From NCBI GenBank assembly GCA_025350325.1, contig JANXYB010000082.1, positions 1 through 64,000 on the forward strand: 64,000 nt of DNA. The letters are read 5' to 3'. Made by a program: the position numbers and the translations under genes. How positions within the stretch are numbered: position 1 is the stretch's first letter; each line of letters begins with the position of its first letter. Origin of the DNA: Acidobacteriaceae bacterium. GTDB lineage: Bacteria > Acidobacteriota > Terriglobia > Terriglobales > Acidobacteriaceae. Below the pieces are notes generated by a model. The model worked only from the letters and a program-made list of their open reading frames with translations, did not search any database and was not told the origin of the DNA. Of the stretch, positions 2,469-29,637 are shown piece after piece.

Positions 2469-2485
2469 TCGTATTCCTCGCCGGA

Positions 2486-8709: not shown

Positions 8710-10239
8710 ATGGTAAAGAGAACGGTAGTCGTAATAGGCGCGGGACCTGGTGGCTTGGCTTCAGCCATGCTGCTGGCGCGTCGCGGTTATAATGTAAGCG
8801 TCTTTGAGAAGGCTCCTCAGATCGGTGGTCGTACCGCTGAAGTGTTGCTAGGACCCTATCGCTTCGATCTGGGGCCGACATTCCTCATGATGAAGTATGT
8901 GATGGATGAACTGTTCGCTGCTGCGGGCAGAAAGACCAGCGATTATCTCGACTGCCGCCTGCTCGATCCCATGTATCGCCTTAACTTCCCGGATAAGACA
9001 ATGTTAGTCCGGTCGCGACCGTCCGACATGCGGGCTGAGATTGAGCGCGTCTTTCCGGGCGAGGGTGGCGGCCTCGATAAGTTCCTCGCTGCAGAGGGCG
9101 TGCGCTTTAAGAAGCTCTATCCATGCTTGCAAAAGGATTATGGCAGTCCGACCGCATTCTTTGACAAAACATTGCTAGCCGCCGTACCCCATCTTGCCGC
9201 GGGGCGAAGCTTGTACGACGTCCTGTCTACTTACTTCCGTTCTGAGGAACTACGTCTCGCCTTTACTTTCCAGTCAAAGTATCTCGGTATGTCCCCTTGG
9301 GATTGCCCGGGTCTTTTTGCGATGATTCCTTACACCGAGCATGCGCATGGCATCTATCACGTGATGGGAGGATTGTCCCAGATCCCAAAAGCATTCGCCA
9401 AGGTTGCCGTCGAGGAAGGTGCTGAAATCCATACTTCCTGCGGAGTTAAACGTGTACTGCTCAAAGGCCGCAACGCTTGCGGAGTGGAGTTAGAAAACGG
9501 CGACAAGATCGATTGCGACGACGTGGTTATCAATGCTGACTTCGGTCATGCGGTCAGCACGCTGTTCCCGGGCAGCGACTTAGGTAAGTACAATCCGGAG
9601 GCGCTCAAAAAGCGGAAGTACTCCTGTTCGACGTTCATGATGTACCTGGGCCTGGACAGAACCTATCCAGATGCGGAACATCACCTGATCGTCTTCGCGC
9701 AGGATTACAAGCGTTGTTTAGAGAACATTACTAAACACAAGATTCTCTCAGACGATATCTCTATCTATGTTCGCAACGCCGTGACTCTTGACCAGAGTTG
9801 CGCACCGCCGGGGCACTCCGCCCTTTACGTGCTTTGCCCAGTCCCAAACAATACCAGCGGTATCGACTGGGAAAAGCATCGATCCGCCTATCGCGATGTC
9901 ATTCTCAAGCTGCTTGAGGAGAGAACACCTTACAAGAATCTTCGCGATCACATCCAATCAGAGTTGATTGTCACGCCCGCCGACTGGGAGCAAAAGACAT
10001 CGGTGTTCCTTGGGGCGACCTTCAACATGGGACACAGTTGGGATCAGATGCTCTACTTCCGACCGCATAACAAATTCGAACTATTTGGCAATACTTTTCT
10101 GGTGGGAGGCGGAACTCATCCCGGCAGTGGATTGCCTACCATTTTCGAATCGGCGCGCATTTCATCGAACCTGATCTGTGCCAAATACGGCGCACCTGAA
10201 TATTTGCCAAGACCATTTGAAGAACTGGAAATCGCATGA
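8710..10239 (+). CDS. crtN: CrtI/CrtN-family carotenoid desaturase
   Basis: N-terminal FAD motif VVVIGAGPGGLASAMLLARRGYNVSVFEK. C-terminal GGGTHPGSGLPTIFESARISS typical of phytoene/diapophytoene desaturases. Confidence 0.85.
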   Translation: MVKRTVVVIGAGPGGLASAMLLARRGYNVSVFEKAPQIGGRTAEVLLGPYRFDLGPTFLMMKYVMDELFAAAGRKTSDYLDCRLLDPMYRLNFPDKTMLVRSRPSDMRAEIERVFPGEGGGLDKFLAAEGVRFKKLYPCLQKDYGSPTAFFDKTLLAAVPHLAAGRSLYDVLSTYFRSEELRLAFTFQSKYLGMSPWDCPGLFAMIPYTEHAHGIYHVMGGLSQIPKAFAKVAVEEGAEIHTSCGVKRVLLKGRNACGVELENGDKIDCDDVVINADFGHAVSTLFPGSDLGKYNPEALKKRKYSCSTFMMYLGLDRTYPDAEHHLIVFAQDYKRCLENITKHKILSDDISIYVRNAVTLDQSCAPPGHSALYVLCPVPNNTSGIDWEKHRSAYRDVILKLLEERTPYKNLRDHIQSELIVTPADWEQKTSVFLGATFNMGHSWDQMLYFRPHNKFELFGNTFLVGGGTHPGSGLPTIFESARISSNLICAKYGAPEYLPRPFEELEIA

Positions 10240-12125: not shown

Positions 12126-13645
12126 CAAATCCATCAGCGATACGCGCGGATAAGAAACGGGTGGTTGTGATTGGCGCCGGGCTCGGTGGCATGACGGCTG
12201 CCATTCAACTCGCTCGCGCAGGCTACGCAGTCGATATATTAGAGAAAAATCCCAATGTAGGCGGCAAGCTGAACATCCATCGCGAAGCAGGTTTTAGTTT
12301 CGATTTGGGTCCCTCAATCTTTACCCTTCCGAATGTCTTTCGGCCGATCTTCGAACAGAACGGCAAAACCCTCGACGATTACATCCATCTTGAAAGAGTG
12401 GATCCGCAGTGGCGCAATTTTTTCGAAGACGGGACGGTCGTTGATCTTTGGGAAAATCCAGCTGCCATGCGGCACGAGCTTGAACGACTGAGCCCGGGCG
12501 CGGTCGAGGACTATCAGAAGTTTCTCGAGTACTCAAAGTTGCAGTATGATATCGTCGAACGCGGCTATTTCAAACATGGACTCGACACTTTCTGGGACTT
12601 CGTTAAATTTTACGGAGTGCGAGGTGCCCGCGGCCTCGATTACATGAGGACGATGGCGACCGGTATTGAAACGGTTGTGCACGACCCTTATCTGCGGGAC
12701 ATCCTTGAATACTTCATCAAATACGTGGGATCGTCGGCGTACGATGCGCCGGGCTTTATGAACCTGATGCCCAACATACAGTTGGAGTTTGGCCTTTGGT
12801 ATGTCAGAGGCGGCCTATACGAACTCGCGCGAGCGTTTGAGCAAAGATTACAAGAGACCGGTGTACGCGTATTCCTGAATCATCGCGTTACCGAGATCCT
12901 CAAGGACGGCGCGAACGTGCGCGGAGTGCTTGCTCGCTCTGCGGATGGATCGACCCTAAGCCTCGATGCGGACTTTGTGGTTTCCAATATGGAGGTCATT
13001 CCTGCAAACCAACAGCTCCTGCACAGTTCGCGCAAAGTAATGAAGAAGCTAGAGCGATTTGAGCCAGCCTGTTCCGGAATCGTTGTGCACCTGGGCCTGA
13101 ACCGAATTTACCCGCAGCTCGCACACCACAACTTTTTTTACTCAAGCGACCAGAAGCGCCATTTTCATCGCGTGTTCAAAGAGAAACAACTTCCCGACGA
13201 CCCTACGATCTATCTCGTCGCACCTACGCGCACAGACCCTTCTCAAGCTCCGCCGGGTTGCGACAACATAAAGATCCTTCCCCACATTCCCTATCGCAAT
13301 GATCAACACCCGTATACGCGGGAGGATTGCGTCGATCTCAAGGAGCGATGTCTCGACAAACTCGAGCGCATGGGTCTGACCGACCTGCGTAAACACATCG
13401 TCGTTGAGGATTTTTGGACACCGTTCGATATAGAAGAAAAGTACCTTTCCAACCGGGGCTCTATCTATGGGGTCGTCAGTGACATGCGAAAAAACTTCGC
13501 GTTCAAAGGTCCGAAGAAAAGCCCCGACTTCAAAAATCTCTTTTATGTTGGCGGCAGCGTCAACCCCGGTGGCGGAATGCCGATGGTTACACTAAGTGGA
13601 CTACATGTTGCGCGGCTGATAATGGAGTCAGACGGGCGCCCCTGA
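12110..13645 (+). CDS. crtP: CrtP/CrtNb-like carotenoid oxidase/desaturase
   Basis: VVVIGAGLGGMTAAIQLARAGYAVDILEKNPNVGGK; C-terminal VGGSVNPGGGMPMVTLSGLHVARLI. Start could be 12110 or 12122. Confidence 0.8.
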   Translation: MLPAMTNPSAIRADKKRVVVIGAGLGGMTAAIQLARAGYAVDILEKNPNVGGKLNIHREAGFSFDLGPSIFTLPNVFRPIFEQNGKTLDDYIHLERVDPQWRNFFEDGTVVDLWENPAAMRHELERLSPGAVEDYQKFLEYSKLQYDIVERGYFKHGLDTFWDFVKFYGVRGARGLDYMRTMATGIETVVHDPYLRDILEYFIKYVGSSAYDAPGFMNLMPNIQLEFGLWYVRGGLYELARAFEQRLQETGVRVFLNHRVTEILKDGANVRGVLARSADGSTLSLDADFVVSNMEVIPANQQLLHSSRKVMKKLERFEPACSGIVVHLGLNRIYPQLAHHNFFYSSDQKRHFHRVFKEKQLPDDPTIYLVAPTRTDPSQAPPGCDNIKILPHIPYRNDQHPYTREDCVDLKERCLDKLERMGLTDLRKHIVVEDFWTPFDIEEKYLSNRGSIYGVVSDMRKNFAFKGPKKSPDFKNLFYVGGSVNPGGGMPMVTLSGLHVARLIMESDGRP

Positions 13646-13647
13646 AT

Positions 13648-14727
13648 ATGTTCGCACTCTTGGTGCTATGTGTCGGCGGTATTCTCGCAGGATTTCTTCT
13701 GCTGCGATTCGTACCTCTAGTGCCTGCGCAGCCCGGCACAGCACCAAAACTTCTATCTGTGAGCGTGGTCATTCCAGCCAGAAACGAAGAGAAGAATCTA
13801 CCTGTGCTGTTAGCGTCTTTGAGCGCAGATGCGATTGTGCCCTTTGAGTTGCTGGTTGTAGATGACGGCTCTACCGACCAGACCGCAGCCATAGCCTTTG
13901 AGTACGGCGCTACTGTAATTACCTCTGCGTCTTTGCCCGAGGGTTGGACCGGGAAGACTTGGGCCTGCCATCAGGGCGCGCTTGCGGCGAGCGGCGAAGT
14001 GTTCTTTTTTCTTGACGCTGATACCTGGTTTGTCCCAGGAGGCTACGCACGAATCGTTAATTACTTTGCCACACTGCCGCAAAATACGGCTTTCTCAATT
14101 CTTCCCTTTCACATAACGCGATGCCGGTATGAAAGTCTGTCGTTGTTCTTCAATATCCTCGTGGCCATGGGTGCCGGCGGATTTGGCAAGCTGGATGCGC
14201 CACACCTTTTTGGTCAAAGTCTGATGATTCGGAAAGACATGTATGCCAAGCCCGGTGGGCATGCGGCTGTGAAGCAGCACGTACTTGAGAATCTCCACTT
14301 CGCCGAATGTGTAAAGCGCTCTGGCGGAAATAATATCGCTTTGGGGGGTCGCGGCACACTGGAGATGAGGATGTTCCCCCACGGGCTCGAGCAACTGCGC
14401 GAGAGTTGGCAAAAGGCCTTCGCCACGGGTGCCGGACAAACTTCCCCGCTAGTGCTTTGGCTCTCTGTTTATTGGCTCGCGTGTGGAGTGCTTGCTCCAT
14501 TCATGCTGATTGGACTCTCTGGTGGTCTGTGGCCAATCGCAATTGGAATCTATCTTGTAAACGTTGCTCAGGTCGCGTGGTATGGCAGCCAGCTTGGAAC
14601 CTTGCCGTGGGCAACGCCGTTGCTGTATCCGATTCCGCTCATCTTCTACTTCGCCACTTTCGGGCAATCCTTCTGGCGACAAAAGCGCAAGCAGCCGGCA
14701 ACGTGGCGGGGACGCGAAGTATGGTGA
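13648..14727 (+). CDS. crtQ: GT2 glycosyltransferase, CrtQ-like
   Basis: SVVIPARNEEKNLPVLLASL, LLVVDDGSTDQTA, FFLDADTWF, C-terminal TM segments. Position in carotenoid operon. Confidence 0.8.
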   Translation: MFALLVLCVGGILAGFLLLRFVPLVPAQPGTAPKLLSVSVVIPARNEEKNLPVLLASLSADAIVPFELLVVDDGSTDQTAAIAFEYGATVITSASLPEGWTGKTWACHQGALAASGEVFFFLDADTWFVPGGYARIVNYFATLPQNTAFSILPFHITRCRYESLSLFFNILVAMGAGGFGKLDAPHLFGQSLMIRKDMYAKPGGHAAVKQHVLENLHFAECVKRSGGNNIALGGRGTLEMRMFPHGLEQLRESWQKAFATGAGQTSPLVLWLSVYWLACGVLAPFMLIGLSGGLWPIAIGIYLVNVAQVAWYGSQLGTLPWATPLLYPIPLIFYFATFGQSFWRQKRKQPATWRGREVW

Positions 14728-16437: not shown

Positions 16438-17301
16438 ATGAAGCGGTTCATGTTGGTAGTGGGGATAACGCTGGCAGCAGCACCCTTTGCAGGCGCACAA
16501 ATTGTGGCACCCTCCACCGACGTACTCGGCGCGCACCTTAACTACGGTCGCGGATGCACCGCTTGTCATGCGCCACACAGCGGTGCGTCAGGCAACGGCA
16601 ATGCTAAGTCTGCGGATATGGCCTCAGGGCTCACCGCACTTTGGGGTGAAGATACCAGCAGTCTTTTTGGTAAGACCATCACGACTGGAGGCGGCAGGTA
16701 TGTCGAAATCCTGCCGACAAGCATGTCAGCGAACACGCCCGACGTCGCTGGCATGATCACCTGCCTCAGTTGCCACGATGGCAACTATGCCTCGGGCGCA
16801 ATGATGCGCAACAAACTATATGAGACTCTGCCTGCGAGCTACGGCAAGCACAACTCCATCCCCACGCTGCTAGGGAGCAACGGCAGCAGCGCGGGCAGCT
16901 TCATCAACGATCACCCGGTTGGGCTGAACGCGAAAATCAGTTGCGGTGCGCCGCGTTGGGATTGCACGGAGAGCAACGGTGAAATCACCATGAGGGGTGC
17001 AGGATCGAGCCGGTTCGTCTCAAACTACGGCTTTTTTGTGAAACCAGGCAGCTACAACAACACCGCCGTGATTGTATGCACTACCTGCCACAACCCCCAC
17101 GTGATGAACGTAGTGAGTGTTACGAGCGGCTCAAACTCAGGGTTGCCAGCGGGAAATTACGCGACCATGTTTTTCCTGCGCGCTCCCTACAATCCAAATG
17201 ACACAAATCCCATGGCCAACCAGACCGCACAATTTTGCCGCCAATGCCATGCAGACAAATCAAACGAAATGAACGGCAGTACGGCTGGAACCGTGTTCTA
17301 A
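16438..17301 (+). CDS. Tetrahaem c-type cytochrome, exported
   Basis: Signal peptide MKRFMLVVGITLAAAPFAGAQ; CXXCH motifs CTACH, CLSCH, CTTCH, CRQCH. Confidence 0.9.
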   Translation: MKRFMLVVGITLAAAPFAGAQIVAPSTDVLGAHLNYGRGCTACHAPHSGASGNGNAKSADMASGLTALWGEDTSSLFGKTITTGGGRYVEILPTSMSANTPDVAGMITCLSCHDGNYASGAMMRNKLYETLPASYGKHNSIPTLLGSNGSSAGSFINDHPVGLNAKISCGAPRWDCTESNGEITMRGAGSSRFVSNYGFFVKPGSYNNTAVIVCTTCHNPHVMNVVSVTSGSNSGLPAGNYATMFFLRAPYNPNDTNPMANQTAQFCRQCHADKSNEMNGSTAGTVF

Positions 17302-17413
17302 GTTTTCCTATTCTGAGAGTTATGATTTGCTGCCTTGCTTCAGCGTGTGAAAGAATCCATGCCGTAGAGGCTGCTTGTGCTGCCTCGCTCTCAAAATCGC
17401 AAGGAGCCTACTA

Positions 17414-17728
17414 ATGAAAAGATCTCTTCGTTCTCATCTTGTTCTAGCCGTCGTTATTTCTCTGGCCAGTGCTGCGGGTTTTGCCGAGGCCGGCGACGCA
17501 ACCTACAAAGCCAAATGCGCAAGCTGCCACGGCGCAACCGGGACACCCAGCGCAGGCATGGCCAAGATGATGAATATCAAACCCGCATCCGACCCCGATA
17601 TGCAAAAGCTCACCGTCGCCGAGATTGTCACTACTGTGAAAAACGGTAAAGGCAAGATGAAGCCAATCGCCGGACTCAGCGATGAGCAAATCAAGGACGT
17701 GTCAACATACTTCCATGGCCTCAAGTAG
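17414..17728 (+). CDS. Small monohaem class I c-type cytochrome
   Basis: SD AAGGAG at 17401 before ATG 17414; signal peptide; YKAKCASCHGATGTPSAGMAKMMNIKPAS...MKPIAGLSDEQIKDVSTYFHGLK. Confidence 0.9.
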   Translation: MKRSLRSHLVLAVVISLASAAGFAEAGDATYKAKCASCHGATGTPSAGMAKMMNIKPASDPDMQKLTVAEIVTTVKNGKGKMKPIAGLSDEQIKDVSTYFHGLK

Positions 17729-17824
17729 GCTTAGGAGTTTAGCAGTTCGCGTGTGTATCAGCCTCGAGCAGTGTGTTACAGGGCGAGTCTGTGAGGGTTA
17801 ATTCACAGAGAATTGGCGCAGTAT

Positions 17825-17866
17825 GCAGCTCCCCTGGATGACTTCTCGGGGCTGTGCTCTTTTGTA
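17825..17866 (+). terminator. Terminator-like hairpin downstream of monohaem cytochrome gene
   Basis: GCAGCTCCCC ... GGGGCTGTGC imperfect inverted repeat followed by TCTTTTG. Confidence 0.45.
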
Positions 17867-17974
17867 GATAGACTTTGAATTATTTTCTTAATAGCAAGCT
17901 CTCATTCAGCATGAGACCTTGGACTCCTTCTTTATTTCGTGCTCGCGGTCGGAACCGTTTCCTTTGCCTTGCCT

Positions 17975-18628
17975 TCAACGCTTGATGGCTCCGTGCTTCT
18001 TCGCATCGGCTATCAACTGTTGAACCCTATATTTTTGCTGATAGTTCGGGCTAGTCGCCAGCAGCTTTTCCCAATCTGCAACAGCGCCGGCGTTGTCCAT
18101 TTTTCCTTGCGACTTCACTAAGCCGCGGTTGAAAAGTGTATTGGGATTAGTTGGTTCGTAGGTGAGGGCCTTATTGAATTCAGAGATAGCCGCATCGGCA
18201 TTCCCCATGTACCAGTAGGCGGTTGCCATATCTGTGCGTACGGCTGCGTCAGCAGGCCTGCCCTTGAGAGAGCGCCCGTAGTAGTCAACGGCAATCGAAT
18301 ACTGTCGCGCGTCGTAATACAAGTTGCCAACGCCGGCCAGCAATGCAGGGTTATCAGGGTCGGACGTGAGCTTGGCGAGCATGGGCGCGGCCTGTGCGTC
18401 GGCCATCTCTTTCAACCGAGCCGGCGTTGGCACATGAGGCACAGCATTTGCCTCCATGTTAACCGGCGCTGAGACGCTGATTCCGCCACTTGAAGCACTT
18501 GCCGAAAAGCTTTGCAATCCCCGGATGAACCAGCCGCCGGCGATGCCCAATCCAAGGCAGGCAACCGCCAACGTGTTGGAGTGCGCGCGTGTCCACTGCT
18601 CAATTGAGGTTCGATTTTTGACGATCAT
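17975..18628 (-). CDS. Membrane-anchored TPR protein (paralogue 1)
   Basis: N-terminal TM (TLAVACLGLGIAGGWFIRG) and TPR repeats (NTLFNRGLVKSQGKMDNAGAVADWEKLL). Confidence 0.75.
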   Translation of the reverse strand: MIVKNRTSIEQWTRAHSNTLAVACLGLGIAGGWFIRGLQSFSASASSGGISVSAPVNMEANAVPHVPTPARLKEMADAQAAPMLAKLTSDPDNPALLAGVGNLYYDARQYSIAVDYYGRSLKGRPADAAVRTDMATAYWYMGNADAAISEFNKALTYEPTNPNTLFNRGLVKSQGKMDNAGAVADWEKLLATSPNYQQKYRVQQLIADAKKHGAIKR

Positions 18629-19376
18629 TGGCTTGCGCTCCTTGAATTCCCTTCTGATCGCTGAGCATGGTCAGCACCGCGGCCATCAGGCTTTGTACCG
18701 TAGCTCTGCGGTCCTCGCTCAATTGGGGATTTGCATTCAACAACCGCTGCCATGCAGCCAGTGCGCCTTTGCCGTCTCGCTTCCCCTTTAGGCGGATCAT
18801 CCCAAGATCGAATAATGAATTGGCGTCTTTGGGGTCATAGACTAGCGCCTGGTTAAGCTGCGTGATCGCTCCATCGACATCGCCGCTACGGTACAAGCTC
18901 GAAGCGAACCTGGTTCTAAGTGCGACATTCTTCGGGTCGGCCTTGACAGCACGTTCGTAATAGTCCGCGGCTCGCTTGAACTGGTGAGTCGTATGGTAGG
19001 TAGCTGCGACTTGGCTGAGCAGAACGCTATTGTTCGGATCGGTTTTAAGCTTTTCGAGCATCGGACCTGCCTGCGTGTCCGCCATTTGCTTCATGTCTGT
19101 CAAGGTAGGCATCCGCCCGCTTTTGATTGAGGCGGACGGCGCATGGGGAAACTGCTTAAGTGCTCCGATTGTGGTCGAATTTGCAACGCCAATTGAGTTC
19201 GGGGCAGATATTTGTCCTACACTGACCGCCGACCGAGCCGCGGAAGCCGGCGATAGCGATCCGCGCGTCAGGTATCCGGCCGCCAAGCCCACCACAAGGC
19301 AGACTGCTGCCCTGACATATACCGTTATTCGCGATGCTTCACTCGCGGGGGACGCCGCGCTTTGATCGTTTTTCAT
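18600..19376 (-). CDS. Membrane-anchored TPR protein (paralogue 2)
   Basis: N-terminal TM plus TPRs; shares MADTQAGPMLEKLKTDPNNSVLL with MADAQAAPMLAKLTSDPDNPALL of the neighbour. Overlaps it by 29 bp. Confidence 0.75.
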   Translation of the reverse strand: MKNDQSAASPASEASRITVYVRAAVCLVVGLAAGYLTRGSLSPASAARSAVSVGQISAPNSIGVANSTTIGALKQFPHAPSASIKSGRMPTLTDMKQMADTQAGPMLEKLKTDPNNSVLLSQVAATYHTTHQFKRAADYYERAVKADPKNVALRTRFASSLYRSGDVDGAITQLNQALVYDPKDANSLFDLGMIRLKGKRDGKGALAAWQRLLNANPQLSEDRRATVQSLMAAVLTMLSDQKGIQGAQANDRQKSNLN

Positions 19377-19546
19377 TCCGGGTTTTCCTGGTCAGAAGTG
19401 CTTGTGCAGGTCTATCGATGTTCAATATGGGAGCGTCACAGGCACCGTATGTCGCGGGTATGACGAAAAAGGCTATTGGCGCGCCCTGTAACTGCGAATC
19501 CACCATCGTCAGCAACAACAGAAGACCACCCGGCAACGAATCGGGA

Positions 19547-19564
19547 ATGTGATGACGATCACAT
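19547..19564. promoter_or_regulatory. CRP/FNR-family-like palindromic site
   Basis: ATGTGATGACGATCACAT; half sites TGTGAT/ATCACA are exact reverse complements around GACG, in the divergent intergenic region. Confidence 0.6.
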
Positions 19565-19672
19565 GAAAATGAGCAAAGACACTTTAGAACGTAACTAAGG
19601 CCACTGCTTCACAGGCTAACTTTGCCGGTGATGTAACAACCGCCACACAGAGGCAAATCGCCAAATTGAGGG

Positions 19673-19688
19673 AGTGATGACGGTCACA
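19673..19688. promoter_or_regulatory. Second CRP/FNR-family-like site
   Basis: AGTGATGACGGTCACA (GTGA-N6-TCAC), same core as the site at 19547, about 120 bp upstream of the cytochrome start at 19808. Confidence 0.5.
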
Positions 19689-19807
19689 TCAAGACATTCT
19701 AATAAAACTTATCCTCACGAAGACGATCGCCGGACGTGCAGCTTGTTGAGTTGAACCCTTGATCGTTAGAAGTTGAACGCGAAAAACGTTCTTGGAGGCT
19801 TTATTCA

Positions 19808-20695
19808 ATGAAGCGCAATTTTTTAATAATGCTATCGATTCTGGCATCTGCCAGCTTCGCTGGAGCACAGATTGGAGCAGCGCCGTCAACAGACGTCCTC
19901 GGCGCTCACCTCAACTACGGTCGCGGCTGCGCGGCCTGTCATGCACCACATAGCGGCGCACTCGGCAACGGCAACGCTAAAACCGCCGACGCAACCACAG
20001 GCAATATCGCGCTCTGGGGTGAAGATGTTGGCAGCCTCTTTGGCAAAACCATCGCGACTGGAGATGGCGGGCACGGCGGCGGTGGTGTTATCGAAGTGCT
20101 GCCTGGCAGTTGGAATGCCGGAACACCCGACGTCGCCGGCGTGCTGACCTGCCTTAGTTGCCATGACGGCAACTATGCGAGCGGCGCAATGATGAAGAAC
20201 AAGGTTTATGAGACCCTGCCTGCCACCTACGGGACGCTGAACGCAATTCCGACGTTGCTCGGCAATGACGGGACCACTGTAGGCAACTACCTCAACGACC
20301 ATCCGGTGGGCCTCAATGCTGTGATGGGCTGTGGCGGACCCTACGATTGGGATTGCAGCATCAGCGCTACCGGTACGGTTCAGATGAATGGGCTAAACTC
20401 CGCCAGGTTCGTCACCAACTATGGGTTCTTTGTCAGCCCAGGAGCCTACAACAACCTTCCCGTGGTCCTGTGCACAACCTGTCACAACCAGCACTTGATG
20501 AACGTAGTCAAAGTAACCACCGGCGCGAAGTCCGGCCTCACGACCGGTACCTACGCGACGATGTTCTTCGTGAAAGCTCCTTACAATCCTGCCAGCGGCA
20601 CCGCCGGCAGCAACCAGACAGCTCAATTCTGCCGCCAGTGCCACGGTGGAGAAGCTAACGAAATGAATAACGGTACGGCTGTCACCACGTTCTAG
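19808..20695 (+). CDS. Tetrahaem c-type cytochrome, exported (paralogue of 16438-17301)
   Basis: Signal peptide; CAACH, CLSCH, CTTCH, CRQCH. Shares APSTDVLGAHLNYGRGC and other blocks with the first paralogue. Confidence 0.9.
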   Translation: MKRNFLIMLSILASASFAGAQIGAAPSTDVLGAHLNYGRGCAACHAPHSGALGNGNAKTADATTGNIALWGEDVGSLFGKTIATGDGGHGGGGVIEVLPGSWNAGTPDVAGVLTCLSCHDGNYASGAMMKNKVYETLPATYGTLNAIPTLLGNDGTTVGNYLNDHPVGLNAVMGCGGPYDWDCSISATGTVQMNGLNSARFVTNYGFFVSPGAYNNLPVVLCTTCHNQHLMNVVKVTTGAKSGLTTGTYATMFFVKAPYNPASGTAGSNQTAQFCRQCHGGEANEMNNGTAVTTF

Positions 20696-20710
20696 TCTGT
20701 TTCACAGTCT

Positions 20711-20746
20711 GGGGAGGGGGCTACAATCTCCCTCCCCTTTCTTTTC
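20711..20746 (+). terminator. Terminator-like hairpin
   Basis: GGGGAGGG ... CCCTCCCC 8-bp perfect stem followed by TTTCTTTTCC, 16 bp after a cytochrome stop codon. Confidence 0.6.
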
Positions 20747-20761
20747 CTACAAGGTGGGGTC

Positions 20762-21781
20762 ATGAAACACAAATTTTCAAGCTGCGGATTCCTTTTATTG
20801 GCATTCGCGGTGGCCGGTGCGCAGGTAGCTTCCCATGCGCCTACGGTCTTCACGCAAAAGCCTGCACCCCGACTGGCAGCACCAGAGTTGACCAAGCCAG
20901 TAGCGCGGGTAAACGGATCCGTTCTTACCGATGTAGACCTGACCCGCGAAGAGTACGCGATATTTCCCTACGCGCGCCAGCATAACGGAATCCCTAAAGA
21001 CCTGGTGCCACAGATTCGCGACGGCGCTTTGAAGATGCTCATCTTTGAAGAACTGGTTTATCAGGAAGCTGCTCGCCAAAAGATGACGGTGTCGGCGTCA
21101 AAGATGCAGAGTGCAGAAGCGGACTTTCGCAAACAGTTCACCACGCCCGGCGAATTCGATGCGATGCTGCAAAACGAGTTTCATGGATCGCAACAATCAT
21201 TCCGAGACAAGATTCGTCGTTCCCTGCTGATTGAATCGTTATTGAAGACAGAGATCGACACCAAGAGCGCAGTTACTCCTGCCGAGCTTCGAGCCTTTTA
21301 CGAGAAAAATACGGCTCGCTTCCAATATCCCGAGTCGTTTACGTTCCAGACAATTTCGATTCTGCCACCAGGCAAAGCCACTCCCGACCAGTTGAAAGAG
21401 GGCCGCAAGCGAGCAGAGGATGCGCTGCGCCAGGCCAAAGCGACGAAGACGGATGAAGCTTTCGGACTGCTAGCAGAAAAGATTTCCGATGACGATTACC
21501 GGGTGATGATGGGGCAGCACAAGCCCGTGCCGATCGATCAAGTGGCACCCCAGGTCTCAAAGGCGCTACTCACGATGAAGGCTGGCGATGTCAGCGATGT
21601 AATCCAGGTTGAGCAAGCCTTTACCATCGTTCGTTTGCAGAAGCACGCACTCGCAGGCAAGACCAGATTCGAAGAAGTGCGAGCGCAACTAGAAAAAGAA
21701 ATGCAACAGAAAAAGACCAACCAGCTTCGTGCAGCGTTGGATAAGAAGTTGCGCCAGAACGCGAAGATCGAAGAACTGTAA
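20762..21781 (+). CDS. Exported parvulin/SurA-like peptidylprolyl isomerase
   Basis: Signal peptide, SurA-like N-terminal helices, parvulin-like region (ESFTFQTISILP...AEKISDD...VSKALLTMKAGDVSDVIQVEQAFTIVRLQ). Confidence 0.85.
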   Translation: MKHKFSSCGFLLLAFAVAGAQVASHAPTVFTQKPAPRLAAPELTKPVARVNGSVLTDVDLTREEYAIFPYARQHNGIPKDLVPQIRDGALKMLIFEELVYQEAARQKMTVSASKMQSAEADFRKQFTTPGEFDAMLQNEFHGSQQSFRDKIRRSLLIESLLKTEIDTKSAVTPAELRAFYEKNTARFQYPESFTFQTISILPPGKATPDQLKEGRKRAEDALRQAKATKTDEAFGLLAEKISDDDYRVMMGQHKPVPIDQVAPQVSKALLTMKAGDVSDVIQVEQAFTIVRLQKHALAGKTRFEEVRAQLEKEMQQKKTNQLRAALDKKLRQNAKIEEL

Positions 21782-21942
21782 GAGGCTGCGTACGTAGCCG
21801 GAGTTCGAGGCCCAGACCTTAAGCGGAAAGATTCGAAGGACTGGCGGTATCGCTACATTGATACCCAGATACGAAGCCGAGATGTGAGACCGGATTTTCA
21901 GCAGCCTGCTAAATCTCTAAGTGTTTGAGGATGGGATAACAG

Positions 21943-23772
21943 GTGGCAGGTTCTCTGCGAGTCGCGAGTTTTTTGTTGGCGGGATTTTCGCTTCTGGTAT
22001 TGCCTTGCGCGGCGCAAGTGCAGTTCGGCGAGCTTAGCACCGACCTGAGCGGGACCGTCTCGACAGGCTATACCGCTAGCTCAAGCAATCTTACTGGTTC
22101 AAATCATAGCTGGGCGGTCGGTGGCGCAGGCACATTTTCCGGCTCCTTCTACAATCCCAATTTTGTGTCTTTCAATGCCTCGATTTATTTGAATCAATCG
22201 CGCGCGAATTCAACCTTCCAATCCATTTCCAATGCCAGCGGAGTCAACCTCACTACCAATATCTTTGGGGGCAGCCGTTTTCCCGGCTCGATCAGCTACT
22301 CCAAGGCTTATAACAGCGACGGGAATTACGCCGTTCCTGGCCTCGCCAACTACGTGACCCACGGCGATAGCGATTCGTTTGGCATCAATTGGAATGAAAA
22401 TCTTCCCGACGTGCCGAGCTTATCGGCGGGTTTTCAGATGGGCAGCAGCAAATATTCCGTTTACGGAACCAACGACCAGGGAAAGAATGCATTTCATTCT
22501 TTCAATCTCAATTCAGGATATAAATTCACGGGCTTCGCCGTAGGAGCCTACTACTCCGATGGCGGCGGTCACTCTTTGATTCCCGAAGTTGTTTCAGGAC
22601 AAACGTCCGCTCAGATCAAATCGGGAAACAGCGCCTATGGAGCTAATCTCACCCATCTTCTACCTCTACACGGCTCGTTCACTGCCGGTGTGAACCGATC
22701 GCAATTCGATAGCAGTTATCTCGGATTCAGTTCGAGCGGAACCATCGACACGTTCACCAGTGCGGCGGCTATACATCCTACCAACAAGTTGTCGGCCACG
22801 ATGAGTGCGAATTACTCCGACAATCTTAGCGGCCAACTTTACCAGTCAGTACTCGCGGCCGGTGGAGTGATTCCGGGCGCTGACTCGAACGCGTCGTCGA
22901 ATTCCCTTGACCTGATGGCCGTCACCTCTTACACCTTTCTCCCCAGCCTGCAAGGTTCGGGCTTCGCTGAGCGCCGCACGCAGTACTTCCTTGGAAGTAG
23001 TTATGGCGTCAATTCCGTCGGCGGCAGCGCCACTTTTGGGCGGCGACTTCTAGCTGGTTCTTTCAACGGCGCACTGACGATCACCGACAATACAACGGAC
23101 GCAACCGGCGCGAATACTTTGGGTCTTTCTACGAATGCTAATTACTCCAGTCGGGTTTTGGGATGGCAAGTGACGGGGTCGTTCGGCTATGCACAAAACG
23201 TACAGACCTTGCTCGTAACTTACATGAATTCGTTTTATAACTACTCTGGCAATGCAAGGCGGCGCTTTGGGAAATTGAGCCTTGGCGCGGGAGCGGGCGC
23301 ATCGAGAACTGGGTTGACCGAGCAACAAGGAACACTGAGTAGCAGCCAGAGCTACAACGCCAGCCTGGGCTACAGTTCCTTACTATCGGGTTCCGCCAGC
23401 TATTCCAAATCGAACGGGCAGGCATTGATTACGGGAGCAGGGCTGGTGCCGGTGCCTACACCCATTTTGCCTTCGAGTCTGCTGAGCCTGTACGGTGGAG
23501 ATAGCTACTCCTTTGGATTGTCCAGTTCCCCGGCGAAACGGCTCACAATCGCAGCCGACTATGCCAAGTCGACCACCAATACTGCCGGCGCAGCGATTTC
23601 CTCGATGAATGAGAACAGTCAGTACAACGTTCTCATTCAATACCAATTTCGCAAGATGGCGTTCAACAGCGGCTACGCACGCCTTGAGCAAGGATTCAGC
23701 GGAACCGGCACGCAACCAGAAATTGTTTCCTCGTACTACATGGGAATCTCACGTTGGTTCAACTTCTTTTGA
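21943..23772 (+). CDS. Predicted outer-membrane beta-barrel protein (porin-like)
   Basis: GTG start, signal peptide (VASFLLAGFSLLVLPCAAQ), long alternating G/S/Y/N-rich strands and C-terminal aromatic end (SSYYMGISRWFNFF). Confidence 0.75.
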   Translation: MAGSLRVASFLLAGFSLLVLPCAAQVQFGELSTDLSGTVSTGYTASSSNLTGSNHSWAVGGAGTFSGSFYNPNFVSFNASIYLNQSRANSTFQSISNASGVNLTTNIFGGSRFPGSISYSKAYNSDGNYAVPGLANYVTHGDSDSFGINWNENLPDVPSLSAGFQMGSSKYSVYGTNDQGKNAFHSFNLNSGYKFTGFAVGAYYSDGGGHSLIPEVVSGQTSAQIKSGNSAYGANLTHLLPLHGSFTAGVNRSQFDSSYLGFSSSGTIDTFTSAAAIHPTNKLSATMSANYSDNLSGQLYQSVLAAGGVIPGADSNASSNSLDLMAVTSYTFLPSLQGSGFAERRTQYFLGSSYGVNSVGGSATFGRRLLAGSFNGALTITDNTTDATGANTLGLSTNANYSSRVLGWQVTGSFGYAQNVQTLLVTYMNSFYNYSGNARRRFGKLSLGAGAGASRTGLTEQQGTLSSSQSYNASLGYSSLLSGSASYSKSNGQALITGAGLVPVPTPILPSSLLSLYGGDSYSFGLSSSPAKRLTIAADYAKSTTNTAGAAISSMNENSQYNVLIQYQFRKMAFNSGYARLEQGFSGTGTQPEIVSSYYMGISRWFNFF

Positions 23773-24851
23773 GGCGAACGCGAAGGCAACAAGTTGGCGC
23801 AGCCCTGATTATGGCTAGCGTCGCGATGATGCTGTCTCCAATGTGGGCGTCTAGAAAAGTTAAGTTCGCGGCAGAAACCCCTCCCCCAGAAATATTGCTC
23901 GATGGCGGCCGCAAGCTTTCCTGGGAACGCAGCTTCAACTCGGAATTTGAAGTCAAACCCGACCGCGGCTTCTGGAACAAGCTAGTCGATGTAATCGCGG
24001 GCGAGCCTCAATTCCGCTCCCTGGTGCGCCCTTACAGCGTCGTTACAGATTCGCGCGGACGAATCATCGTGACGGATCCCGGCGCGGCGGGCGTACACAT
24101 TTTCGATTTCGCGCAGCACAAGTACAAATTCATCGAACGCAAAAAAGACAAAGACGCGATGCTGACTCCGCAATGCGTCGCGGTAGATGCGCACGACAAT
24201 ATCTACGTAACGGATTCGGATGCGGGCAAGATTTTTGTATTCGAGCCCAGCGGAAAGTATCAACGCGTAATAGGCAGTCTGCGCGGACACGAAGGTTACT
24301 TCAAGCGCCCCACTGGGATCGCAGTGGACTCGGCCGCACAGCGGATTTATGTAACTGACACCCTGCGCAACAAAGTCTTGATGCTTGACATGCAAGGCAA
24401 GGTGCTACAGGCGATCGGCAAGAGAGGCCAAGTTGAAGGCGAATTTAATTTCCCCACGGAGCTGCGGCTCGATGGACAGAACCTGCTGGTCGTCGATGCC
24501 ATGAATTTCCGGGTGCAGGTGTTTGACCGCGCCGGAGCTTTTCAATACGCCATCGGCAAAATCGGCGACCGCACGGGAGCCATGTTCAGGCCCAAAGCTG
24601 TCGGTGTCGATTCAGAGGGCGACCTGTATGTTGTCGACGCTTTGTATGGCGTTGTACAGGTCTTCAATCGGCAAGGCCAATTGCTCTACCATTTCGGCTC
24701 CGAAGGCACGCATCCAGGAGAGTTTCAATTACCAGCCGGCATGAATATCGACCATGACGACCGCATTTTTGTTGTCGATTCGTTTAACCGCCGCGTACAG
24801 GTATTCCATTACTTTGGCTTGAAAGCTCCTGGCAGGGAGGGAATGAAGTGA
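23754..24851 (+). CDS. NHL-repeat beta-propeller protein
   Basis: Repeated FKRPTGIAVDSAAQRIYVTDTLRNKVLMLD / FRPKAVGVDSEGDLYVVDALYGVVQVFNRQG blocks. Start overlaps the barrel gene. Confidence 0.88.
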   Translation: MVQLLLRRTRRQQVGAALIMASVAMMLSPMWASRKVKFAAETPPPEILLDGGRKLSWERSFNSEFEVKPDRGFWNKLVDVIAGEPQFRSLVRPYSVVTDSRGRIIVTDPGAAGVHIFDFAQHKYKFIERKKDKDAMLTPQCVAVDAHDNIYVTDSDAGKIFVFEPSGKYQRVIGSLRGHEGYFKRPTGIAVDSAAQRIYVTDTLRNKVLMLDMQGKVLQAIGKRGQVEGEFNFPTELRLDGQNLLVVDAMNFRVQVFDRAGAFQYAIGKIGDRTGAMFRPKAVGVDSEGDLYVVDALYGVVQVFNRQGQLLYHFGSEGTHPGEFQLPAGMNIDHDDRIFVVDSFNRRVQVFHYFGLKAPGREGMK

Positions 24852-26734
24852 GCCCGAAAGTTTTACTGGCCGGGCTAACCATGATCTTTGCCGGAGCAAC
24901 CCTGCCTGCTCAGATTACCGGCGATGTGATTGGTATGCATGACCTGGGACCAGGCAGCAAATCGCCCATCACCGGCGCTCGCCCTGATTCCTGCAATTAC
25001 TGTCACGCGCCCCACTCCGGCCTGAGCGTAGGCCTTTGGAACCAGAAGCTCTCTACGCAAAACTACACCGTGTACGGCAGCGATACTGAGAAAAACAACG
25101 GGGCACAGCCGAAGCTCGGCGCCAGCAGCAACCACTGCCTGAGCTGTCATGACGGCACCGTCGCTGTCGGCACCACGGTTGTCTCCGGCCAGGTCGTCAC
25201 CAGCGGTTCGATGTATGCGAAAGACATCTTCGGTAGCAACATGCAACTCTCGCATCCGTTCAGCATGGCGCTGCCCTTCAAGGATAGTGCGCATCTAGTC
25301 GCCTCGCTTGCGGCAAGCGGAAAAACCAGCGACACGACTGGAGCGGTGAAGCTGATCAACGGTAATGTCGAATGTCTGTCGTGCCACAATCCTCACGTGC
25401 AAGCGCGTGATCTTGTGTCGCAGAATTTTCTTGCGAAGGATAGTTCGAATGGTCAGATGTGCCTCGCCTGCCACGATCCCACGCGAGTCATGAGCGGTCA
25501 GGTTAATCCGCTGGCCGATTGGGCAACCAGCGCGCACGCGTTGTCGAGCGACAAGATTTCGCCGCAAGCATTGGTGGGCAGCTACGCCACGGTCGCCGCC
25601 GATGCCTGCATCTCATGCCACACGGCGCATAACAGTAGCGGAACGGCGCGGCTGTTGCGCGGTCCGAACGAACAGGATTGCATTGCCTGCCATAACGGCG
25701 GCTCGAATGTATCTCCGCCCGCGCCCAACGTGTTTTCTGAATACGCCACGCCTAAAGTAGGCCATCCATTTCCCACGTCGACCAATCCGCACGACGCCGC
25801 AGAGAACACACTGCTCAACAACAATCGTCATGCAACATGCATCGACTGCCACAGCGGCCACGGTTCGCAGGCAGTTGGGGTATTTCCCCCTCCACCGTTG
25901 CTGCGCATCTCTCAAAAAGACGTAGCAGGCATCAGCGCCACCGACGGAACCAGCGTGCTCACGCCCGCCATCAATCAATTTGAGAATTGCCTGCGGTGTC
26001 ACGGCACCAGTTCGAATAAGCAAGTACAGCCAATCTACGGATACTTTCCGGTGAGAGCCGTTTCTGCGGGCGATGCCTTGAACAACATCCCTCAGTTTGC
26101 AATCACAGCCACGTCGAGCCATCCCGTCATGCACGACCGGAGCAGCGCTCTACCGCAGCCCAGCCTGCTGCCTAACTTGTTGAACCTCGATGGCATCACG
26201 CAGGGCCGGACGATGGGCACCCGCATTCTTTGTACCGACTGCCACAACAGCGATGACAATCGCGAGTCCGGTGGCCCGGGTCCCAACGGTCCCCATGGAT
26301 CGCGATGGACACACATCCTTGAGCGTCGCTATGAATTCAGTCAGACTGTGCTACCAGGTCAAATGATTTCAAACCTTTTTCCCAATCCCGATCTCAGCGT
26401 CAACGGACCCTACGGCCTGTGCGCCAAATGCCACGACTTGGCAAATCAGATTGTAAAGAACACCAGTTGGAGTCAACACAGCAGCCACATCGCCGCCGGC
26501 TTTGCCTGTTCCACCTGCCACACCGCGCACGGCATGGGCGCCACCAGCGGAACCATTAGCGGCGAGCGACTGGTGAATTTCGACATGAATGTTGTGGCCT
26601 CAAATGGCGGCTTACCGACTGCCTACAATCGCGCCTCGAATACCTGCGCACTGGTCTGTCACCAGGTCGCGCACAACGCCAATGGCACCGTCACGGCCGT
26701 CTCTTTGAATCAGCGCATGGGGGTTAAGAGATGA
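24848..26734 (+). CDS. Multihaem c-type cytochrome with 11 CXXCH plus one CXXXCH motif
   Basis: CNYCH, CLSCH, CLSCH, CLACH, CISCH, CIACH, CIDCH, CLRCH, CTDCH, CAKCH, CSTCH and CALVCH read directly from the translation. Signal peptide. GTG start overlaps upstream stop (GTGA). Confidence 0.92.
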   Translation: MSPKVLLAGLTMIFAGATLPAQITGDVIGMHDLGPGSKSPITGARPDSCNYCHAPHSGLSVGLWNQKLSTQNYTVYGSDTEKNNGAQPKLGASSNHCLSCHDGTVAVGTTVVSGQVVTSGSMYAKDIFGSNMQLSHPFSMALPFKDSAHLVASLAASGKTSDTTGAVKLINGNVECLSCHNPHVQARDLVSQNFLAKDSSNGQMCLACHDPTRVMSGQVNPLADWATSAHALSSDKISPQALVGSYATVAADACISCHTAHNSSGTARLLRGPNEQDCIACHNGGSNVSPPAPNVFSEYATPKVGHPFPTSTNPHDAAENTLLNNNRHATCIDCHSGHGSQAVGVFPPPPLLRISQKDVAGISATDGTSVLTPAINQFENCLRCHGTSSNKQVQPIYGYFPVRAVSAGDALNNIPQFAITATSSHPVMHDRSSALPQPSLLPNLLNLDGITQGRTMGTRILCTDCHNSDDNRESGGPGPNGPHGSRWTHILERRYEFSQTVLPGQMISNLFPNPDLSVNGPYGLCAKCHDLANQIVKNTSWSQHSSHIAAGFACSTCHTAHGMGATSGTISGERLVNFDMNVVASNGGLPTAYNRASNTCALVCHQVAHNANGTVTAVSLNQRMGVKR

Positions 26735-28302
26735 GCGCACCCCAGGATCGATTTATTCGCTTCATGGCGAATCTAGTCGAACACTCTTCGTTCGGAGGTT
26801 TTTTGAGATTGCTCCCACAGCGCGTCTGGTCTCGCGAAACGGTCGCTCGCCGCGGTGGGCAGCCGCGTTTGCACCTTTTGATCTTCGCTGCCCTGATGGC
26901 GTTGTTGGTGTCGCGCGCCGACGCTGCGGTTCATCCCGTGCCACTCGATAAAAACACACCTGCCGCCAAGTGCCTTGAATGCCACGACGACAAGAGCAAA
27001 GGCAAGTCCGTGCATTCCGCTATGGCAACTGGCTGTTTGAGCTGCCATGAGATTCGCGTCAATCGAGACGTTACGCGCGTTAAGCTGATCACCGCCACTC
27101 CGGCTGCGCTCTGCTTCACTTGCCACGCCGATAAAAAAGCCGCCGCCATCAAGGGAACGGTACATCCGCCGGCCATCCGCGACTGCATGACCTGTCACGA
27201 TCCGCACAGCAGCGACAATAAGAATCAATTGCTCAAGCCCATGTCAGGCGGAGAGAAAGAAAACCTCTGCAGCAGTTGTCACAAGACGGGATTGAATATG
27301 CCCGAGAAGGGCAGCCATCATGCCGCTCTCGACATCGGTTGTGATACCTGCCATCTCACCCACAAGACAGGCCCAGAGCCGACTGCCGAGAACCGATTCC
27401 ATCTCACCAAGCCTGCGCCCGCACTCTGTGTGGATTGTCATGATCCGAAAGATGCGAACCTGCAGAAGGCTCATCAGAATCAGCCTTTCGGGGCTTCTAA
27501 CTGCGTCGAATGCCATGATCCGCATCAATCAGCTTCACCCAAGCTGATGGCAAAATTCATGCATGCGCCCTTCGCGGCAAAGAGTTGCGAGGCCTGCCAC
27601 GCACCGGCAAAAGATGGGAAAGTAGTGCTGACGCAAACCGACTCCAAAGCGGTTTGCCTGACATGTCACGAAGACAAGGCCACGCAGATCGCTGCGGCCA
27701 AGGTGCCCCATCCCGGCGCCATGGGCGACTGCACCGATTGCCACAGTCCTCACGCCAGCAACCAGCCCGGCTTGCCTAAAACTGACGCAGTAACCATCTG
27801 CCTCGGCTGTCACAGTGACATCGACGAACTGCGTAAGAAGTCAGTGCACCATCAGCCGGCGTTTGTTGAGGGTTGCGCCACATGTCACACGCCCCACGGC
27901 GGTGATAACGGTCATTTGTTGCGCGCCAAAGGCAATGCGCTTTGCCTTGAGTGCCACGGTCCTGATTCTGTTCCGCAAAAAGATGAGGCGCAACATCTCC
28001 TCACCATTTTCAATGGCCAGGTCAAACTGAGCGACGACTATTACAAGAAAAATAAGGTTGCGATCCTGCCGCTGCGATTCGGACTGGGACATCCAGTGGA
28101 ATATCACCCCGTCTCAGACGTGATGGATCCGACCGACCAAAGTAAGGTCGCGACTCCGCTCAGTTGTCTCTCTTGCCATCAGCCGCACGCTTCGGCACAG
28201 GCCGACCTGCTGGTCAAAGATCAGGCCAACAACATGGCGTTTTGCGACAACTGCCACAAGAACCGGCTCAACATGAAGCAGACTACTTCGCCTGGAAAAT
28301 AA
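26731..28302 (+). CDS. 16-haem c-type cytochrome (doubled CXXCH-type)
   Basis: 16 CXXCH motifs counted in the translation, often as CxxCHDPH / CxxCHxPH. ATGA overlap with upstream gene. N-terminal hydrophobic LHLLIFAALMALLVSRADA. Confidence 0.92.
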   Translation: MSAPQDRFIRFMANLVEHSSFGGFLRLLPQRVWSRETVARRGGQPRLHLLIFAALMALLVSRADAAVHPVPLDKNTPAAKCLECHDDKSKGKSVHSAMATGCLSCHEIRVNRDVTRVKLITATPAALCFTCHADKKAAAIKGTVHPPAIRDCMTCHDPHSSDNKNQLLKPMSGGEKENLCSSCHKTGLNMPEKGSHHAALDIGCDTCHLTHKTGPEPTAENRFHLTKPAPALCVDCHDPKDANLQKAHQNQPFGASNCVECHDPHQSASPKLMAKFMHAPFAAKSCEACHAPAKDGKVVLTQTDSKAVCLTCHEDKATQIAAAKVPHPGAMGDCTDCHSPHASNQPGLPKTDAVTICLGCHSDIDELRKKSVHHQPAFVEGCATCHTPHGGDNGHLLRAKGNALCLECHGPDSVPQKDEAQHLLTIFNGQVKLSDDYYKKNKVAILPLRFGLGHPVEYHPVSDVMDPTDQSKVATPLSCLSCHQPHASAQADLLVKDQANNMAFCDNCHKNRLNMKQTTSPGK

Positions 28303-28314
28303 CTGGAGATTACG

Positions 28315-29637
28315 ATGTTTCGCTTGCTCTTCAACTCAACACGAGACCACACGCCACATGCTTTGCTCCTCCTGTTTCTGCTGAGCCTGGCTTTGCCATT
28401 CCATGCTCATGCGCTGAAGAAAAAGAAAGCCGACGCGCCTGTAGTCGCACCGGCAGGCCCGCGCAAGTTTGGGTTTGATCCCACCAAGCTTGTATGGCCC
28501 AGCCCACCAAACATTGCGCGCGTGCGCTGGGTGGATTATTTCGCAGGAACGAAAGTCGACTACTCTACCGCGGCCACCGCGAAGCCCAAAGCAACCTGGA
28601 TGGATCGTCTCGCAGGCGGCCAGTCGCAGACCGAAAAATTTAATCCGAAGACTTTTCCTTTTCAGATGATCGGGCCGTACGGCATTGCGATCGACTCCAA
28701 GGGTCTCGTGTATGTGGCTGATCAAAGAGTCGGCGCTATTTTCATCTTTAATCCTGAAACCCGCGACGCGCAGCTCATCCGTAACGGCTTTGAGGCTCAC
28801 TTTGGATGGGTAAACGGCCTTGCCATCGATGACGACGACCGGCTCTTTGTCTCCGACGGCAAAATGCGGCGCGTCATGATCTTCAATGCCAAGCACGAAG
28901 TTGAAAGTCAGATCACTGAGGGATTATCGGATCCCGTGGGCTTGGCTATTGACACGACAAACCGCTTTCTCTATGTTGTCGATACGCAGCAGGACCAGGT
29001 CATCGTTTATGACGCCGACAGCCTCAAGCTGTTGCGCCGCATCGGAACCGGGGGCAAGAATCATTTCCTCACCACGCCAGGCGACTTCGGCGCTCCGCAG
29101 GGAGTGGCGGTGGACCCGGACGGCAACGTCTACGTGACCGACACTCTCAATAACCGCGTCGAAATTTTCGATGCCGATGGAAATTTCATCAGCCTGTTCG
29201 GCAAACACGGCGATGGTCCCGGCTGCTTCGCGCGCCCCAAGGGAATCGCGGTAGATTCCGATGGCCACATCTGGGTCGCCGACGAGATGGAAGACCGGCT
29301 ACAGGTCTTCGATCGGGACGGCCACTTGCTGACGTACATCGGTACCGGGCATGGAGAGTTGCCCGGCCAGTTCAAAGCTCTCGTGGGGGTCGCGATCGAT
29401 AAGAAGAACAGGGTCTATACGACCGAGCAATTCCCCGGACGCATGCAAATGTTCACTTACATCACCGACGCAGAAGCGGCAGCGGAAAAGGGGAAGCATG
29501 CTGCAGACCTGCAGAAGGCCGCCGATCGCCGTCAGAAAGCTGCAGCACCTCCGAAAGAAAAACCGGCCGTCGATTCTCCGCAGCAGCCTACTGACAAATC
29601 AGTTCAGAAAGACGGCGTAGCGGGCAAACCACAGTAA
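28315..29637 (+). CDS. NHL-repeat beta-propeller protein with Lys/Ala-rich C-terminal tail
   Basis: APQGVAVDPDGNVYVTDTLNNRVEIFDADGNFISLFGKHGDGPGCFARPKGIAVDSDGHIWVADEMEDRLQVF repeats; signal peptide. Confidence 0.9.
   Translation: MFRLLFNSTRDHTPHALLLLFLLSLALPFHAHALKKKKADAPVVAPAGPRKFGFDPTKLVWPSPPNIARVRWVDYFAGTKVDYSTAATAKPKATWMDRLAGGQSQTEKFNPKTFPFQMIGPYGIAIDSKGLVYVADQRVGAIFIFNPETRDAQLIRNGFEAHFGWVNGLAIDDDDRLFVSDGKMRRVMIFNAKHEVESQITEGLSDPVGLAIDTTNRFLYVVDTQQDQVIVYDADSLKLLRRIGTGGKNHFLTTPGDFGAPQGVAVDPDGNVYVTDTLNNRVEIFDADGNFISLFGKHGDGPGCFARPKGIAVDSDGHIWVADEMEDRLQVFDRDGHLLTYIGTGHGELPGQFKALVGVAIDKKNRVYTTEQFPGRMQMFTYITDAEAAAEKGKHAADLQKAADRRQKAAAPPKEKPAVDSPQQPTDKSVQKDGVAGKPQ

Follow-up and report, generated by a model that had tools for sequence, protein, structure and literature searches.

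Gene content and haem motifs of the locus

We analysed a window of 64,000 nucleotides from an Acidobacteriaceae bacterium (assembly GCA_025350325.1, contig JANXYB010000082.1, positions 1 to 64,000 of the forward strand), in which the region 16438-29637 had been proposed, from the letters alone, to encode a porin-cytochrome conduit for extracellular electron transfer. The central genes of this region lie on the plus strand and begin with tetB (19808-20695), which encodes a tetrahaem cytochrome and is followed by a hairpin resembling an intrinsic terminator, with a 10-bp stem containing 8 GC pairs and a T-rich tail (20711-20737). Downstream are the genes of a periplasmic SurA-like peptidyl-prolyl isomerase (PPIase; 20762-21781; Pfam Rotamase_2 1.1e-14 and SurA_N_3 9.2e-9), of a predicted outer-membrane beta barrel ending in RWFNFF (21943-23772) and of NHL1, an exported beta propeller of the six-bladed type (23754-24851; Pfam DUF5128 2.3e-23 and NHL 7.9e-21). 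They are followed by two large cytochromes, c12 (24848-26734) and c16 (26731-28302), the latter of a doubled-CXXCH, DmsE/MtrA-like kind, and by a second exported propeller, NHL2 (28315-29637; Pfam NHL 2.2e-29). From the barrel through NHL1 and c12 to c16, each gene overlaps the next, an arrangement that speaks for a single transcription unit.

Haem motifs were counted by translation of the open reading frames (ORFs) in 16438-29637. The original prediction had listed 4+1+4+11(+1 atypical)+16 motifs in five exported cytochromes, and translation gave the same figures: 4 CXXCH in 16438-17301, 1 in 17375-17728, 4 in 19808-20695, 11 plus one C-X3-C-H in 24848-26734 and 16 in 26731-28302, that is, 36 CXXCH and one CX3CH, or 37 in total. 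The chance expectation for CXXCH in the 1850 amino acids of these cytochromes was about 0.006, composition-matched shuffles gave a mean of 0.19 and a maximum of 2, and the remainder of the window held 3 haem motifs in 15,456 amino acids. The atypical twelfth motif of 24848-26734 proved to be real: C600-X3-C604-H605 and the later H609 were invariant among 35 aligned homologues, and 11 CXXCH plus one CX3CH were present in 40/40 scored homologues. Judged from these sequences, the protein previously described as carrying 11 haems is therefore most likely a dodecahaem cytochrome. The haem counts of the other families were equally stable, with 4 motifs in 45/45 near-full-length tetrahaem proteins and 16 motifs in 29/30 homologues of c16.

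Relationship of the tetrahaem proteins and c12 to OmcE

When the profile of the tetrahaem family was compared with the whole PDB, it matched 9yuq (4e-11) and the Geobacter OmcE nanowire 7tfs (2.8e-6), the next chain being at 0.011. The c12 profile matched the same two structures over its first ~200 residues (~11-212), with values of 3.7e-27 for 7tfs and 1.7e-21 for 9yuq. Single tetrahaem proteins searched directly against the PDB did not find OmcE, which was reached by the family profiles alone, and a search of c12 against plasmids gave no match. In the alignment of the tetrahaem family with OmcE, all four haem motifs matched, as did the histidines of CxxCHxPH, DHP and CxxCHxxH; every CXXCH of tetB as well as H34, H48, H165 and H229 were invariant in 34 sequences, and the fourth invariant histidine lay N-terminal of haem 1. 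It has been reported that in the OmcE polymer one haem is ligated by a histidine from the neighbouring subunit (PMC9473688, PMC12307469). Comparison of profiles and haem motifs thus gives good support to the view that the tetrahaem proteins and the N-terminal module of c12 are OmcE homologues, a kinship that the original prediction had overlooked.

PDB 9yuq, the solved structure nearest to the tetrahaem family of the window, is a recent 16-chain entry named 'Putative multiheme cytochrome c' and is 39% identical to OmcE; our literature search found no paper describing it.

The outer-membrane barrel

The AlphaFold2 model of the barrel, built on a 39-sequence alignment, was a single 28-strand barrel with no plug and a mean predicted local distance difference test score (pLDDT) of 79, so that the predicted porin fold was obtained and a non-porin one was not. 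In a Foldseek search against 350,542 PDB chains the best match was MtrB (6r2q_B; E 1.2e-8, 12% identity), which ranked ahead of other large barrels; its template modelling score of 0.46-0.49, slightly below 0.5, suggests resemblance of fold class and is not proof. The barrel had no match to a Pfam or NCBIfam family and no sequence match in the PDB. Profile-profile comparison in local mode with the barrels of non-Geobacter omcE loci gave 97%, versus 1.3-1.6% for reversed controls, and comparison with the betaproteobacterial barrels alone gave 19%. We regard the link of this barrel to other omcE loci as good at the level of the locus and moderate at the level of sequence.

Conservation in the class of the host

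The barrel was present in 43/399 genomes of the host's class, representing 26/135 genera, and was nearly absent by profile outside the class in the phylum sample. We examined 40 regions around barrel homologues for gene content and order: c12 was present in 40 regions, NHL1, PPIase and the tetrahaem gene in 39 each, and c16 and NHL2 in 30/40 each, several of the absences lying beyond the ends of short contigs. The usual order was c16 - NHL2 - tetrahaem - PPIase - barrel - NHL1 - c12, with NHL2 following c16 in 30 loci. In members of the genus to which the host belongs, c16 and NHL2 instead lie together downstream, as in the window, and a second tetrahaem gene of the tetA type often intervenes on the opposite strand. 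Pairwise identities of the families correlated with each other at 0.75-0.90, and at 0.56-0.73 for c16. Barrel, NHL, PPIase and cytochromes are thus inherited together, and the conserved unit is 19808-29637.

Membership of the locus as first proposed was consequently upheld for this core and not for the genes upstream of it. A tetA-type gene was near the cassette in ~10/40 loci, mostly on the opposite strand, and TPR (tetratricopeptide repeat) genes were near 26/40 cassettes; tetA and the two TPR genes are common neighbours of the core but do not belong to it, and the mono-haem cytochrome gene was rare (3/40 loci).

OmcE-type loci in other lineages

A scan of named genomes with OmcE as the query gave 52 loci. 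The omcE loci of Geobacter and its relatives contained c16-like cytochromes of 8-10 haems, an NHL gene, OmcE, often a second NHL gene, and a barrel of ~740 amino acids. Those of Nitrospirae and Betaproteobacteria had the order NHL - OmcE - PPIase - barrel - NHL - OmcE-like or 11-haem genes, and an uncultured acidobacterium (L108) had NHL - OmcE - barrel - NHL - c12. The window has the same order of NHL - tetrahaem - (PPIase) - barrel - NHL - multihaem. Genes for omcE adjoining NHL genes have been mentioned in scattered reports, for example in Geoalkalibacter (PMC12016550).

Four loci of the host's phylum, two from another family (L145 and L146) and two from the host's own family (L147 and L148), bridged both groups. 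They had the window's order, except that L147 and L148 were without PPIase and L147 was without a full c16-like gene, and their tetrahaem proteins were identified as OmcE by BLASTP (25-35% identity) and were at the same time members of the window's family. TetB occupies the position that OmcE has in these loci. In the c12 tree the window fell within the host-class clade and adjoined L145-L148 with strong support. With the exceptions given above, these OmcE-like loci of the host's phylum share PPIase, barrel, NHL1 and c12 with the window. More generally, loci L108, L114, L120 and L145-L148, from Acidobacteriota, Nitrospirae and Betaproteobacteria, had an order equal or nearly equal to that of the window, but their tetrahaem protein was closer to OmcE and their c16-like protein had 7-9 haems, not 16. 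The architecture had been called lineage-specific, which was not supported: other loci of the phylum have this order too, the omcE loci of Geobacter, Nitrospirae and Betaproteobacteria have a related one, and only the barrel sequence is restricted to the lineage.

Compared with the Geobacter OmcE locus (7TFS), the window likewise has a homologous tetrahaem subunit with an NHL gene before it and a barrel gene after it, adjoining c16-like cytochromes (8-10 haems in Geobacter) and a hairpin behind the subunit gene. In contrast to Geobacter, it encodes a PPIase, and its cytochromes include one with 12 haems and an OmcE-like module as well as a single 16-haem protein.

Large c12-like proteins with 11 haems, 700-920 amino acids and an OmcE-like start were also observed in Aromatoleum (L123, L126 and L130), Gallionellaceae (L133 and L139) and Gammaproteobacteria (L124, L125 and L136), some of them adjoining 24-haem cytochromes and NHL genes. 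On the basis of these sequences, the association of an OmcE-like start with a larger multihaem protein, as proposed for c12, appears to extend beyond the host lineage.

A conserved hairpin behind the tetrahaem gene

The GC-rich hairpin at 20711-20737 begins 15 nt past the tetB stop codon and ends 24 nt ahead of the PPIase start, a gap that could hardly accommodate a further promoter. A hairpin was found 3' of the tetrahaem gene in 31/39 homologous loci (shuffles, 6%), and the same kind was present behind the PPIase gene in only 2/40. It was also found behind 17/18 omcE genes of Geobacteraceae and Desulfuromonadaceae in our set, and behind 29/55 of all OmcE-like tetrahaem genes (shuffles, 9%), with neighbour-gene controls of 8/59, 1/14 and 4/29. 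The claim rests on these shuffle and neighbour-gene controls: the window's hairpin region differed from its own shuffles with a z of only -1.9, and a covariation count on the column alignment was negative but uninformative, because the loops vary in length and the alignment columns were out of register. No Rfam element was found in the region.

These sequence features lead us to propose that the hairpin is a partial terminator. Lying between the gene of the wire subunit and those of the conduit, it would allow many subunits to be made per conduit, and its occurrence in two distant groups raises the possibility that it is a general stoichiometry switch of nanowire loci.

A wire plus conduit model and its alternatives

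The homology of the tetrahaem proteins and of the c12 N-terminus to OmcE makes an extracellular wire plus conduit, and not a trans-membrane path alone, the most likely function of the locus. Taking together this homology, the shared gene order, the barrel fold, the fixed haem counts and the conserved hairpin, we consider it probable that this is the form taken in the host lineage by the OmcE-type extracellular cytochrome-nanowire cluster; that it belongs with the OmcE loci is a stronger claim than that it forms a wire. In the model that we propose, tetB (and tetA) would be exported in excess over the other proteins and would polymerise outside the cell as a haem wire. The conduit would consist of the 28-strand barrel with c16 on its periplasmic side, plus c12, which could act through its OmcE-like first 200 residues as the anchor or cap joining the wire. 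Periplasmic carriers would hand electrons to c16, from which they would cross the barrel, occupied by c16 itself or by part of c12, and reach c12, whose OmcE-like module would deliver them to the tetB polymer. The PPIase may fold the barrel and the cytochromes, and the NHL propellers may be scaffolds for assembly or docking. By default we assume that electrons move outward, to minerals or humics, and uptake could also occur.

Several observations weigh against this model. The N-terminal histidine arm of tetB has 7 residues, versus ~21 in OmcE, so that ligation between subunits may differ from that of OmcE; yet a relative from the host's family, in L147, has the same short arm and is a clear OmcE homologue (32% identity). 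TetB also has extra loops relative to OmcE. The structure model of the tetrahaem protein was poor (pLDDT 63.5), and Foldseek found no PDB fold match for it; OmcE itself is reported to give no Foldseek matches beyond close homologues (PMC9473688). Homology of the barrel to the barrels of the Geobacter omcE loci was undetected (4% by profile-profile comparison), and the host probably respires oxygen, as the presence of three haem-copper-oxidase homologues points to an aerobe.

The short arm and the extra loops would also suit a porin-cytochrome conduit without a wire, in which tetB, although of OmcE descent, stays monomeric and works as a shuttle outside the cell or in the periplasm, and electrons cross the outer membrane through the barrel, c16 and c12 alone; a barrel and multihaem proteins suffice for a conduit of the Mtr kind. 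We consider this arrangement unlikely in view of the close kinship of tetB to OmcE, its equal gene position and the hairpin, which suggests an excess of the subunit. Another possibility, concerning only the direction of transfer and using the same parts as the wire plus conduit, is that electrons are taken up from Fe(II), Mn(II), a mineral or a partner cell and feed aerobic respiration. The three COX1 homologues of the genome are in agreement with it, as are the omcE-like loci of Gallionellaceae and Geoalkalibacter, where oxidation has been proposed (PMC12016550); but OmcE is known from outward transfer and the genome encodes a NapC/NrfH-like quinol-linked cytochrome, and we judge inward use to be rather improbable. 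Finally, the cytochromes gave weak NrfH/NrfB profile echoes, as expected for many multihaem proteins, which could be read as a purely periplasmic pathway of the nitrite/nitrate type with an unrelated barrel. This seems very improbable: the barrel gene overlaps NHL1 and accompanies c12 in 40/40 loci, and tetB and the N-terminus of c12 are homologous to OmcE. A denitrification-type pathway was rejected, as Pfam and NCBIfam scans of the cassette found no catalytic family of nitrite or nitrate reductases.

Comparison with other conduit systems

With MtrB as the best PDB match and the genes co-inherited, the assignment to the porin-cytochrome type was sustained, and the window resembles MtrCAB/PioAB in its large plug-less barrel and in the proximity of c16 to the DmsE/MtrA model. 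Unlike MtrCAB, it has a 28-strand barrel with no MtrB family match and no MtrC-type lipoprotein; the barrel of MtrB has 26 strands. With 16 haems and a TIGR03508 score of 182 bits, below the cut-off of 192, c16 is not the decahaem partner of the MtrA/DmsE type, and c12, which has 12 motifs, a plain signal peptide and no match to TIGR03507, is not a decahaem lipoprotein of the MtrC/OmcA type. The Omb-Oma-Omc and Ext conduits of Geobacter also combine a porin with multihaem cytochromes in one operon, but the window has a different gene set, without any NCBIfam or Pfam match above cut-off to these conduits.

A further comparison, of described composition alone, was made with the OetABI/SEEP-SRB1 cluster of the bacterial partners of anaerobic methanotrophic archaea (ANME), which comprises a propeller, a PPIase, 16-haem and 26-haem cytochromes and a porin (PMC5539420, PMC10553843). 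In both, the genes for a porin, a six-bladed propeller and a PPIase are clustered with those of a 16-haem cytochrome and of cytochromes that are candidates for a wire. They differ in that the second large cytochrome has 26 haems in the Oet cluster and 12 in the window, whose largest counts are 16 and 12, in that OetB is a lipoprotein and no lipobox was seen in the window, and in that the wires are OmcS/OmcX-like in the former and the subunit is OmcE-like in the latter. A PPIase-guided search for Oet loci in five Geobacter-type genomes found none; it gave one omcE-like cluster (L169) and otherwise unrelated loci.

Possible implications for nanowire attachment and soil bacteria

Accounts of how cytochrome nanowires leave the cell, become anchored and are supplied across the outer membrane are still described as speculative (PMC12307469). 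The locus described here is a small co-inherited set of a subunit, a barrel, a 12-haem cytochrome with an OmcE-like module, a 16-haem cytochrome, a PPIase and two propellers, common in outline to the OmcE loci of other phyla, which names a candidate anchor and gives a testable expression ratio. If c12 is the cap and the hairpin a partial terminator, this set would be a parts list for the attachment of OmcE-type wires to cells. We tentatively extend the proposal, with less confidence than that in the locus itself, to a widespread soil lineage, probably Terriglobia, that would possess OmcE-family wires, a dedicated and co-inherited conduit, the wire fold built into c12 as cap or anchor, and a wire to conduit ratio set by the conserved partial terminator.

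A peat metagenome survey that searched for omcE, omcS and omcZ found none, and reported decahaem-type and 16-haem cytochromes from Terriglobia-type bacteria, the 16-haem one from Koribacter (PMC3669403). The window suggests that what is probably a major soil lineage has a divergent locus of the OmcE type for a nanowire and its conduit. Some common soil bacteria may accordingly move electrons outside their cells by means of extracellular wires, which would bear on the redox cycling of iron and humics in soil.

Neighbouring genes and other cytochromes of the genome

Upstream of the core, tetA (16438-17301, plus strand; 4 CXXCH) encodes a second OmcE-like tetrahaem cytochrome of the same profile family (A1) as tetB, with which it shares 65% identity, and appears to be an accessory copy at the level of the lineage. 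The next gene on this strand encodes an exported mono-haem class I cytochrome c (Pfam Cytochrome_CBB3 1.6e-13), for which the ATG at 17417 is a better start than 17375, giving a product of 103 amino acids (17417-17728). On the minus strand are the accessory genes of TPR protein 2 (17975-18628), with an N-terminal membrane anchor or signal, and of TPR protein 1 (18600-19376). The predicted PPIase, with SurA-like N-terminal and rotamase domains, the two NHL propellers and the two minus-strand TPR proteins were all recovered by Pfam.

The same genome contains a second candidate conduit on contig C78 (L091:3971-9835), with a decahaem cytochrome of the DmsE/MtrA type (TIGR03508, 266 bits versus a cut-off of 192), followed by a long barrel-like ORF without a Pfam match and two mono-haem cytochromes. 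One of these two shares 60% identity with the mono-haem protein encoded at 17417, and the conduit also adjoins the genome's only NapC/NrfH-like membrane cytochrome. An octahaem cytochrome of the C554/DmsE-like kind was found on contig C126 (L092:2071-3282), near a ferritin-like-domain protein.

In the window itself, the minus strand at 1734-5836 encodes two adjacent proteins with single CXXCH-type motifs, one of which is a RoxA-like cytochrome (PF21419, 9.7e-15), a family known from rubber dioxygenases and relatives of di-haem peroxidases. Among named plasmids, the best matches to a long TonB-receptor-like gene of the window were from Granulicella and Acidisarcina (28-30% identity), which, with the many related species of the host's class, fits a host in class Terriglobia of the Acidobacteriota. 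The genes at 8710-14727 encode a pair of desaturases of the CrtI/amine-oxidase type, an aldehyde dehydrogenase fused to DUF2141 and a glycosyltransferase, and this region, which adjoins the cassette, resembles a gene cluster for a carotenoid or terpenoid glycoside.

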